From Bradyrhizobium sp. B124 (GTDB lineage: Bacteria > Pseudomonadota > Alphaproteobacteria > Rhizobiales > Xanthobacteraceae), in contig NZ_CP152413.1 of assembly GCF_038967635.1 (NCBI RefSeq), forward strand, positions 8,250,001-8,314,000: DNA of 64,000 nt, written 5' to 3'. The notes under the pieces are model-generated. The model saw only the letters and a list, made by a program, of their open reading frames with translations. It was not told where the DNA came from and searched no databases. Below, one piece after another: positions 59,535 through 61,579 of the stretch (the stretch's first letter is position 1; each line of letters starts with the position of its first letter). Both the position numbers and the translations under genes were made by a program.

Positions 59535-60536
59535 TCAGAGCTGGAACAAGCCAAACCCCTCCATGACGTCGCGCCTGGTGCGCTCGGTAATCTCCCGCGC
59601 TTTCACGGTTCCGCGCCGGATCACGTCGACGACGTGGTCGCGATCGTTGGCCAGCTCGGCGCGCCGTGTCCGGATCGGTGCGATCAGGGCTTGCAGGATA
59701 TCCTCCAGCCGCCGCTTGACGGTCATATCGCCGAGACCGCCGCGCCGATAGCGCGCCTTCAATTCCTCGACGGCGTCGTGATCGTCGTCGAACGCGTCGA
59801 GATAGGTGAAGACGACATTGCCCTCGACCTTGCCGGGGTCGGCGACACGCAGATGATCGGGGTCGGTGAACATCGCGCGCACCGCGGCCGAGATGTCATC
59901 GGGCGAGGCCGAAAGCGGAATCGCGTTGCCCGCGGACTTGCTCATCTTCGCGCGTCCGTCGACGCCGGGCAGCCGCCCCGCGCGCGGGATGATAGCTTCG
60001 GCTTCCTGCAGCAGCGTACGGCCCGCGAGCGCGTTGACCCGCCTGATAATCTCGTTGGTCTGCTCGATCAGGGGCGCCTGATCCTCGCCGACCGGCACGA
60101 TTGTGGCGCGAAACGCGGTGATATCGGCGGCCTGCGCCACCGGGTAGCACAGGAAACCCGCCGGGATGTCGCGTCCAAAACCGCGCGCGCGGATCTCGTC
60201 CTTGATGGTGGGATTGCGCTCTAGCCGCGCGACGGTGACGAGGTTGAGGTAGAGCATCGACAGTTCCGCCAACGCCGGGAGCTGCGATTGCAGGCAGATC
60301 GAGGTTCCCTCGGGATCGATCCCGACGGCAAGATAATCCAGCGCGACCTCGATGACGTTGCTGCGCACCTTGCCGATGTCGTGCGCATTGTCGGTCAGCG
60401 CCTGCATGTCGGCGAGCAGCAGAAACTGCTCATGGCTGTCCTGAAACCCCAGGCGGCTTCGGAGCGAGCCGGCATAATGGCCGAGATGCAGCGGCCCGGT
60501 GGTGCGGTCGCCGGTGAGGATGATCGGTTTGGTCAT
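59535..60536 (-). CDS. trpS: Tryptophanyl-tRNA synthetase
   Basis: 333 residues from the ATG at 60536, with GGAG seven bases upstream. Class I signatures: the HIGH counterpart PLHLGH (15-20) and KMSKS (207-211) in DGRAKMSKSAGNAIP. Tryptophan-pocket features include LLADMQALTDN, RNPTIKDEIR and YPVAQAADITAFRATIVPVG with EDQ. It charges tRNA-Trp. A leader peptide with two adjacent Trp codons, an antiterminator and an intrinsic terminator lie directly upstream, so expression should rise when charged tRNA-Trp is short. A rhizobial genome usually carries another trpS; this may be a second copy. Confidence 0.93.
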   Translation of the reverse strand: MTKPIILTGDRTTGPLHLGHYAGSLRSRLGFQDSHEQFLLLADMQALTDNAHDIGKVRSNVIEVALDYLAVGIDPEGTSICLQSQLPALAELSMLYLNLVTVARLERNPTIKDEIRARGFGRDIPAGFLCYPVAQAADITAFRATIVPVGEDQAPLIEQTNEIIRRVNALAGRTLLQEAEAIIPRAGRLPGVDGRAKMSKSAGNAIPLSASPDDISAAVRAMFTDPDHLRVADPGKVEGNVVFTYLDAFDDDHDAVEELKARYRRGGLGDMTVKRRLEDILQALIAPIRTRRAELANDRDHVVDVIRRGTVKAREITERTRRDVMEGFGLFQL

Positions 60537-60592
60537 TTGTATCTCCATTCGGTTGAATGGGGACACCGCATGCGGGCTGGATGAAGCCAAAC

Positions 60593-60617
60593 AAAAAGGC
60601 CGCCCAATGCGGCGGCC
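60593..60617 (-). terminator. Intrinsic terminator of the trpS attenuator
   Basis: On the minus strand GGCCGCC (60617-60611), loop GCATT plus one G, GGCGGCC (60604-60598), then TTTTTG. A seven-base GC-only stem with a U tract lies 57 bp upstream of the trpS ATG, between leader peptide and gene. Confidence 0.87.
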
Positions 60618-60648
60618 CCGAAAATGCATGAACGCGTTCGGCCGCCTG

Positions 60649-60696
60649 TCAGTCGGCGAGCCACCAGAAATTGGCGATGAGGTTCGATCGGTTCAT
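60649..60696 (-). CDS. trpS leader peptide with tandem Trp codons
   Basis: A 15-codon frame ATG to TGA encodes MNRSNLIANFWWLAD. Trp is otherwise rare, and two adjacent TGG codons at positions 11 and 12 are the mark of a tryptophan leader peptide. The stop falls just before region 2 of the attenuator. It has no other function expected. Too short to be found by normal gene calling. Confidence 0.87.
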   Translation of the reverse strand: MNRSNLIANFWWLAD

Positions 60697-60750
60697 GCCG
60701 CAAGCGGTAGGGCAAACCCGCAACGCGGTCAAGGCATCGACGACGCTAAA

Positions 60751-60780
60751 GCCCCGTTCCGATTGAAATCGGAACGGGGC
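60751..60780 (-). terminator. Hairpin terminator of the FabG-like gene
   Basis: Perfect 13-bp stem (GCCCCGTTCCGAT / ATCGGAACGGGGC) with a TGAA-type loop. On the minus strand it is followed by TTTAG and lies 65 bp past the FabG-like stop, so it ends that transcript. On the plus strand a T5 run follows after a short gap. Confidence 0.7.
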
Positions 60781-60844
60781 TCTAGATTTTTGTCTTGACG
60801 CGTTTTCTTCACGCGAACCGGTACCCACTTCGCTCGAAAACGCT

Positions 60845-61579
60845 CTAGTTGAACGCCATGCCGCCGCTCATCGCAATCGTCTGCCCGGTCATGTAGGGAT
60901 TGTTGACCAGCAGCATCACCGCCTGCGCCACCTCCTCGGCGGTGCCGAAACGGCCGATCGGGATCCGGCTGACGAGGCCGCTCTGGCCCTTCATCATGTC
61001 GGTCTCGATCAGCGACGGTGCGACGGCGTTGACGGTGATGCCCTCCTTGACGAGGCGCGCGGCGTAGCCTCGGGTCAGGCCCTCCATCGCCGCCTTCGAC
61101 GCGTTGTAGTGCGGCCCGATCGCGCCGGCGCCGCGCGCAGCGCCGGAGGAGATGTTGACGATGCGGCCCCATTTCCGGGTGCGCATCATCGGCAGCACCG
61201 CTTGCGTGCAGAGAAACGCCGATTTGAGGTTGACCGTGATGGTGCGGTCGAAATCCTCTTCGGTGAGGTCGTCGACACCCCTGACGATCGCGATCCCCGC
61301 ATTGTTGACGAGGATGTCGACCGGGCCGAGCTCGGCTTTGGCGCGCTCGACCAGGCGGGCGACGGCGGCTGCCTCGGAGACGTCGGCTCCGACAGCGACG
61401 GCGCGGCCGCCGGCGGCGGTGATGCCCTTCGCCAGCGTCTCCGCCTCGGCCGACCGCTCGCGATAGTTGATGGCGACGGCGGCGCCGGCGTCCGCCAGCA
61501 TTTTGACGATGGCCGCACCAATGCCGCGCGAGCCGCCGGTCACCAGTGCCACATGTCCTTGCAGACTGTTTGTCGTCAT
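60845..61579 (-). CDS. FabG-like short-chain dehydrogenase/reductase
   Basis: 244 residues from the ATG at 61579, preceded by AAAGGAGAA. Classical SDR features are intact: ALVTGGSRGIGAAIVKMLAD, INYRERSAEAETL, DILVNNAGIAIVRGVDDLTE, active Ser in IVNISSGAARG and HYNASKAAMEGLTRGYAARL with Y-x-x-x-K. The C-terminal MTGQTIAMSGGMAFN matches the FabG/acetoacetyl-CoA reductase subgroup. It reduces a 3-oxoacyl or related substrate with NAD(P)H. It is a single gene divergent from the DUF3830 gene and followed by its own terminator. Confidence 0.9.
   Translation of the reverse strand: MTTNSLQGHVALVTGGSRGIGAAIVKMLADAGAAVAINYRERSAEAETLAKGITAAGGRAVAVGADVSEAAAVARLVERAKAELGPVDILVNNAGIAIVRGVDDLTEEDFDRTITVNLKSAFLCTQAVLPMMRTRKWGRIVNISSGAARGAGAIGPHYNASKAAMEGLTRGYAARLVKEGITVNAVAPSLIETDMMKGQSGLVSRIPIGRFGTAEEVAQAVMLLVNNPYMTGQTIAMSGGMAFN

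Follow-up and report, generated by a model that had tools for sequence, protein, structure and literature searches.

The window, by which we mean the whole 64,000-nt stretch of Bradyrhizobium sp. B124 DNA that was analysed, carries a trpS gene for a second, spare tryptophanyl-tRNA synthetase (TrpRS) that is accessory within the genus. This gene is very probably preceded by a ribosome-mediated Trp attenuator that would induce the spare enzyme. Going one step further, we tentatively propose an attenuator with two checkpoints, although we would not yet call this wider reading probable: one stall at the Trp codons would govern both termination and exposure of the ribosome-binding site, the translational half would be the part that stays constant throughout Alpha-, Beta- and Gammaproteobacteria, and the terminator would have been gained and lost repeatedly as the cassette moved from species to species.

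The product of trpS (333 residues, start codon ATG at 60536) passes the NCBIfam model TIGR00233 with 223 bits (cut-off 177). Its nearest solved relative is TrpRS II (1yi8/2a4m, 385.9 bits; next 221.5), listed in the PDB as tryptophanyl-tRNA synthetase II, which we take to be the Deinococcus radiodurans protein; this likeness covers the protein alone. The genome, a single contig of 9.17 Mb, encodes another TrpRS at C1:5784906-5785913 with 30% identity to the window product. The controlled gene had been predicted to be trpS, and the synthetase is confirmed, but it is the auxiliary copy beside the main TrpRS. Of 117 genomes sampled from the genus, 27 contain a relative of the window copy (E <= 1e-90), and the main TrpRS was found in 58 of 60. 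Wider draws, which overlap, had their own E-value limits and in large genomes scored only part of the first-look candidates, gave relatives in 14/149 (family), 10/249 (order), 25/289 (class) and 23/299 (phylum) genomes. In addition, 90 plasmid records hold a trpS relative (E <= 1e-60), and the best match among the listed named loci (best 80) is from Bradyrhizobium tropiciagri with 89% identity. The genus copies are scattered over several separate positions in a quickly built tree of 159 proteins, so that the spare trpS reads as an apparently horizontally moving enzyme gene.

The leader lies on the minus strand (Table 1), and its codons are ATG AAC CGA TCG AAC CTC ATC GCC AAT TTC TGG TGG CTC GCC GAC TGA. 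Read on this strand, the predicted 15-codon leader, Trp-Trp pair, four regions and terminator with T run are correct to the base. Pairing 1:2 comprises seven pairs and one bulge (60662-60655 : 60646-60640). The core of region 3, GGCCGCC (60617-60611), is the exact reverse complement of region 2, and the core of region 4 (60604-60598) is identical in letters to region 2. An intrinsic terminator with a U run is present before trpS, GGGGCCGCC-GCATTG-GGCGGCCTT (60619-60596) followed by the T-rich tail TTTTTGTTT; the GC stem and T5 of the original prediction are there, and the stem can be extended to nine pairs (60619-60611 : 60604-60596). To call the attenuator complete was too strong, however. 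The Trp leader and pairings 1:2, 2:3 and 3:4 stand, but the Shine-Dalgarno (SD) hairpin 5:6 and the pairing 3:5 (CGCCGCAT/ATGCGGTG in the window) had been missed.

Table 1. Features of the trpS locus and its leader in the window.
Feature	Position	Strand	Basis or remark
Auxiliary tryptophanyl-tRNA synthetase gene trpS, TrpRS II type, 333 codons + stop	59535..60536	-	profile, structure match, genome search, tree
Putative -35 TTGACC	60727..60732	-	sequence read; 17 nt from putative -10
Putative -10 TACCGC, weak	60704..60709	-	7 nt before leader ATG; family-wide -10 position
Leader peptide ORF MNRSNLIANFWWLAD and stop, 15 codons	60649..60696	-	sequence read and relatives
Adjacent Trp codons TGGTGG	60661..60666	-	sequence read and relatives
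Region 1 GGCTCGCC	60655..60662	-	would be masked by ribosome stalled on Trp codons; covariation, masked folding
Region 2 GGCGGCC	60640..60646	-	partner of 1 or of 3; covariation, masked folding
Region 3 GGGGCCGCC, terminator 5' arm	60611..60619	-	terminator prediction, folding, covariation
Region 4 GGCGGCCTT, terminator 3' arm	60596..60604	-	terminator prediction, folding
T-rich tract TTTTTGTTT of intrinsic terminator	60589..60597	-	sequence read, terminator prediction
Region 3b CGCCGCAU, arm and loop	60607..60614	-	complementary to region 5; covariation, folding, shuffles
GGGG	60619-60616	-	lengthens region 3b : region 5 pairing
Region 5 AUGCGGUGUCCCC	60559..60571	-	partner of region 3b or of SD region
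SD-sequestering hairpin 5:6, GUGUC.CCAUUC / GAAUGG.GAUAC	60539..60566	-	covariation, folding
Shine-Dalgarno GGAG of trpS	60543..60546	-	start/SD calling

The fold of the 115-nt leader lies 2.9 sd below dinucleotide shuffles (0/200 as low). Within the window alone the single pairings are weakly unusual, with 620 (1:2), 107 (2:3), 26 (3:5) and 15 (5:6) of 2000 shuffles as low, and therefore conservation carries the case against chance. A rule for leaders with adjacent Trp codons (WW leaders) was applied to the 161 related trpS loci whose upstream DNA is complete and was positive at 98 of them, compared with 64 of 3,980 control stretches taken from 139 of these loci; the leader upstream of trpS is evidently not a chance occurrence. 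By trpS identity the positives were 68/85 at 65% or above, 28/54 at 55-65%, 2/18 at 45-55% and 0/4 below. The constancy of the WW pair is partly definitional, because the rule itself demands TGGTGG. Three loci with short upstream DNA (L027, L068 and L084) stand outside the 161-locus count, and L027 carries a leader. Conservation of the TGG pair in close relatives had been proposed as a check, and in the genus draw 29 of 30 copies, window included, have a leader with this pair in front of them, the exception (L030) being a partial gene. Among the listed matches leaders occur in Rhizobium, Methylobacterium, Ruegeria, Paraburkholderia, Massilia and Chromobacterium, and further in Vibrio, Photobacterium, Alteromonas, Aeromonas, Hafnia, Kluyvera and Serratia. 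The distance from WW to the trpS start is 112-152 nt in 94 leaders, a set from which three leaders without callable start and two misassigned ones (L117, L069) were dropped. The body of the peptide varies between groups.

The rule fails at 63 of the 161 loci. When 35 of these were read by eye, a single-Trp leader was seen in at least five (L043, L118, L123, L132, L156), and no leader was visible at any of the Acinetobacter loci (6 of the 10) and Cupriavidus loci (2) among those read. In the tree all 94 leaders fall on one side of a branch holding 126 rows (SH-aLRT 96); the other 32 rows of that branch are without usable leader and include ten Acinetobacter loci and L117, whose leader was excluded for a bad start call. 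The Acinetobacter TrpRS (L099, L102-L110), without a Trp leader by the WW rule, sit among alphaproteobacterial copies, and transfer followed by loss of control is possible. In small-genome alphaproteobacteria (L053-L068, 0.6-2.1 Mb) the TrpRS is likewise of TrpRS II type (50-58% identity), without WW leader by the rule, and may be the sole TrpRS. Other members of the window's own genus have a further lineage of this spare trpS (L010-L019, L021, L022, L029), with leaders of the MTVVVITFANLWWRST type that are mostly without U run and end in an SD hairpin.

For the pairings, leaders were split at their best hairpin (3:4) into regions 1-6, and duplex energies within leaders were compared with those between leaders of different species. 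This self-versus-swap test was run on 37 representatives of the 94 leaders (<75% identity) with 20,000 permutations. Of the three stems for which the original prediction proposed a covariation check, 1:2 (z -6.8) and 3:4 (z -14.9) covary, each with 0/20,000 permutations as low, whereas the signal for 2:3 is weak (z -1.9, 584/20,000) because this pairing is present but nearly invariant. With the conserved leader and covarying 1:2 and 3:4 behind it, the predicted Trp attenuator in control of trpS holds up, and Trp-dependent attenuation of this gene can be assumed with high confidence on sequence grounds.

The two additional pairings covary as well: 3:5 with z -9.2 and 5:6 with z -6.8 (each 0/20,000 as low), the ten control region pairs giving z -1.7 to +3.0. 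At stricter thinning to 20 and to 9 leaders both again gave 0/20,000, and thinning to 4 leaders, too few rows to say more, gave 850/20,000 for 3:5 and 1,648/20,000 for 5:6. Examples of 3:5 are GCCGGAG/CTCCGGC (Hafnia), GCCGAAA/TTTCGGC (Serratia), GCTGCTGG/CCAGTAGC (L076; the same core in Vibrio) and GCCGCCAGCC/GGCTGGTGGT (Paraburkholderia). Little pairing was found in 2 of the 37 leaders, L039 and L074 (3:5 -8.6 and -3.1, 5:6 -1.9 and -1.3 kcal/mol). A MAFFT alignment (A2) of 15 alphaproteobacterial leaders with terminator has 83.9% of cells paired for the OFF structure and 93.0% for 3:5, both exceeding their slid versions; alone it is unconvincing, because pairs with double changes are few (OFF 3, below the shuffled mean of 3.7; 3:5 2). 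The Shine-Dalgarno of trpS is buried in hairpin 5:6 and held there by conserved, covarying pairing, one of the features expected of an attenuator acting at the level of translation.

The most serious alternative is a classical transcription attenuator only, with the terminator as sole switch in the window and 5:6 and 3:5 either left over from a translational ancestor or acting as a steady brake on translation. The good intrinsic terminator of the window speaks for it. However, neither pairing covaries in 12 trpE(G) attenuators of the order (3:5 z -0.2, 5:6 z +0.4), a set of 24 loci with 21 leaders found, from which five doubtful starts and four near-duplicates were dropped. By comparison, in 40 random sets of 12 trpS leaders the z of 3:5 averaged -4.7 and ranged from -6.0 to -2.6. 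On this evidence we take 3:5 and 5:6 to be genuine and, as far as the comparison with trpE(G) goes, specific to these trpS leaders. They also covary in T-run leaders alone (n=21; 3:5 z -7.5, 5:6 z -5.2, 0/20,000 each), so they are maintained where the terminator exists. In leaders without T run (n=16) the counts were 0 and 1/20,000, respectively; 2:3 does not covary among the 21 T-run leaders (z 0.1). A U run, roughly defined as 5 or more T within 8 nt, is absent from 47 of the 94 leaders; by this definition L013 scores positive although it has no real U run. Repeated gain and loss of the terminator on the tree, where starred branches force no fewer than 16 and 14 label changes, is to be taken with care because the split into leaders with and without terminator is rough.

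Folding of the window leader with the ribosome masked in reproduces the first switch. When the chain ends before region 4, a ribosome stalled at the first Trp codon brings the probability of 2:3 to 1.00, against 0.02 without ribosome and 0.00 with the ribosome at the stop codon. Once region 4 has emerged, 3:4 prevails at equilibrium even while the ribosome is stalled; like other attenuators, this one must therefore switch kinetically. The second step fares differently. In the window 5:6 stays closed across the full-length states tried (P 0.93-1.00), and opening the SD costs slightly more with the ribosome stalled (7.2 kcal/mol) than at the stop (6.5 kcal/mol); over the 37 leaders, equilibrium folding gives 6.99 versus 6.94 kcal/mol. 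Since the cost is the same for stalled and finished ribosomes, equilibrium modelling lends the SD step no support. That 5:6 remains closed in the ribosome states tried favours the terminator as sole switch; weighed against the covariation, we hold this explanation to be serious and yet rather doubtful. Barring single regions, with the ribosome stalled, gave an SD-opening cost in the window of 6.3 kcal/mol with region 4 barred versus 9.9 kcal/mol with region 3 barred, and among the 94 leaders barring region 3 raises the cost by over 1 kcal/mol in 49 and lowers it in 3. Region 3, when not tied up in 3:4, thus competes for region 5 and eases opening of the SD. With region 4 barred in the window, region 3 favours region 2 over region 5.

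In the two-checkpoint attenuator that we prefer, transcription would begin at the leader AUG. With charged tRNA-Trp plentiful, the ribosome would reach the leader stop and cover region 2, 3:4 would form, and transcription would end before trpS; in RNA that is read through nevertheless, the SD would be kept in hairpin 5:6. Under a shortage of charged tRNA-Trp, whether from lack of Trp or from inhibition of the main TrpRS, the ribosome would stall on the Trp codons and hide region 1, region 2 would pair with region 3, and RNA polymerase would read through. Region 3 could then engage region 5 and release the SD. A single stall could control both checkpoints because the 5' arm and loop of the terminator pass from region 2 to the anti-SD segment. 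In relatives without T run the translational step would act alone. Sequence and conservation together show the Trp-Trp leader, 1:2, 3:4, the terminator with its T run, 3:5, 5:6 and the status of the gene as second synthetase. The SD step is not a computed result; we infer it from conservation, position and order of transcription, and that it works as described is conceivable, if on balance somewhat doubtful.

The start of transcription was approached through the family, as a promoter scan of 59800-61500 with the E. coli consensus found nothing; the family-wide -10 position was used instead. Averaged over the 37 leaders, the -10 score is highest at 6 and 7 nt upstream of the leader ATG (-0.74 and -2.31), is -2.81 at 9 nt and lies between -3.6 and -6.3 elsewhere. 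In the window the hexamers TTGACC and TACCGC are 17 nt apart, and its own -10 is a poor match. An anti-SD match of -6 kcal/mol or below precedes 1/37 leader ATGs, 28/37 trpS starts and 11% of random positions; the 28/37 is biased upward, because the SD was one of the criteria for choosing trpS starts, and the 1/37 is unbiased. Transcription thus probably starts at or next to the leader ATG, i.e., the leader would be leaderless. A start downstream of 60640 had been named as evidence against the attenuator, and the predicted start lies at the leader ATG instead.

A leaderless start also bears on the idea that the leader yields a trans-acting small RNA or peptide, like Sinorhizobium rnTrpL/peTrpL, with control of trpS secondary. 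The S. meliloti trpL is a leaderless Trp leader, and the RNA of this trpE(G) leader, which begins at the ATG, is a source of products acting in trans (PMC7298713, accessible part); the window leader looks leaderless too. However, the peptide body is not conserved beyond close relatives, and the conserved pairings run past the terminator into the trpS ribosome-binding site, which makes this reading improbable. Rhizobiales trpL of trpE(G) (Sinorhizobium, Bradyrhizobium) shares the Trp-Trp leader and regions 1-4, as far as the accessible part of PMC7298713 describes it, but controls biosynthesis, whereas the window leader precedes trpS and not trpE(G). The trpE(G) of the window genome (L166, C1:3868530-3870629, minus strand) is preceded by a Trp leader of its own, MSTLASPSRRWWPTFS, which lacks an obvious SD and has a TTGACA element in front of it. 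A T-box, other tRNA-binding leader or riboswitch in place of leader-peptide translation is highly improbable: T-boxes control most synthetase genes of Firmicutes (PMC1262725, accessible part) and the region upstream of L161 (Furfurilactobacillus) looks T-box-like by eye, but the conserved feature here is a Trp-Trp ORF, and the 12 Rfam matches (E <= 5), all below gathering score, include no attenuator, T-box, Trp or Trp-leader family.

The attenuator in the window is itself ordinary in kind; the specialist interest lies in the family and in the second module. An auxiliary TrpRS gene of Streptomyces is reportedly the subject of an experimental paper by Vecchione and Sello from 2010, judging by its title, and Vitreschak 2004 is said to be a survey of proteobacterial attenuators. 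The pheST attenuator serves another amino acid and a housekeeping synthetase. In the accessible parts of the sources, the prediction of trpS attenuators for Streptomyces dates from 2005 (PMC1262725), and one was reported for S. lividans from transcriptome data (PMC8079986). Like the window gene, the Streptomyces auxiliary trpS lies behind a short Trp leader (PMC1262725, PMC8079986, as accessible). Unlike the window, Streptomyces belongs to the Actinobacteria, and the S. lividans leader MMTRTCTQLWRAA has one Trp codon; as given in the accessible text of PMC8079986, it is leaderless and followed by two hairpins without U-rich run. What is accessible of PMC1262725 and PMC8079986 makes no mention of 3:5 or SD-hairpin pairing, a distinction by description, not by sequence. 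Titles cited in the accessible part of PMC4787780 link Streptomyces auxiliary TrpRS genes to resistance against a TrpRS inhibitor; the trigger may accordingly be an inhibited main enzyme just as well as a shortage of Trp. The gammaproteobacterial pheST attenuator also places a synthetase gene under control of leader translation (PMC1262725, accessible part). In Caulobacter crescentus a small translated leader CDS precedes a proteobacterial trpS (PMC4117421, accessible part), a likeness by description alone.

Among the matches listed from the openly available literature, this brief Caulobacter leader CDS was the only mention bearing on trpS attenuation in Proteobacteria (PMC4117421, as accessible), and in a term search trpS is not named in the main text of PMC2965389 and PMC2659441, which treat predicted attenuators and cis-regulatory RNAs. 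To describe such control as rarely reported was fair, given the accessible accounts of Streptomyces trpS (PMC1262725, PMC8079986) and the short mention for Caulobacter (PMC4117421). As far as found, the attenuator is of a known kind, its broad proteobacterial host range is new among the openly available literature, and the SD module and 3:5 link are additions. One predicted attenuator thereby becomes a family, patchy and also plasmid-borne, in which a spare TrpRS comes with its own sensor of uncharged tRNA-Trp in many Proteobacteria. It offers a testable case of a single leader-peptide stall feeding two expression platforms, and leaders with and without terminator form a natural series on the interconversion of termination and translation control.

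The ORF upstream of the leader ends at 60845 and presumably resembles a short-chain dehydrogenase. Between this ORF and the leader lies a 14-pair hairpin (60750-60781). Just upstream of the leader promoter, at 60799-60835 (-) within 60726-60855, is a dispersed palindromic repeat, GAGCGAAGTGG..ACCGGTTCGCGTGAAGAAAACGCG, of which the genome holds 108 copies (up to 3 mismatches; reversed control 0). This repeat probably explains a sub-threshold Rfam match to the Brucella sRNA BASRCI27 (35.6 bits, gathering 59.8).
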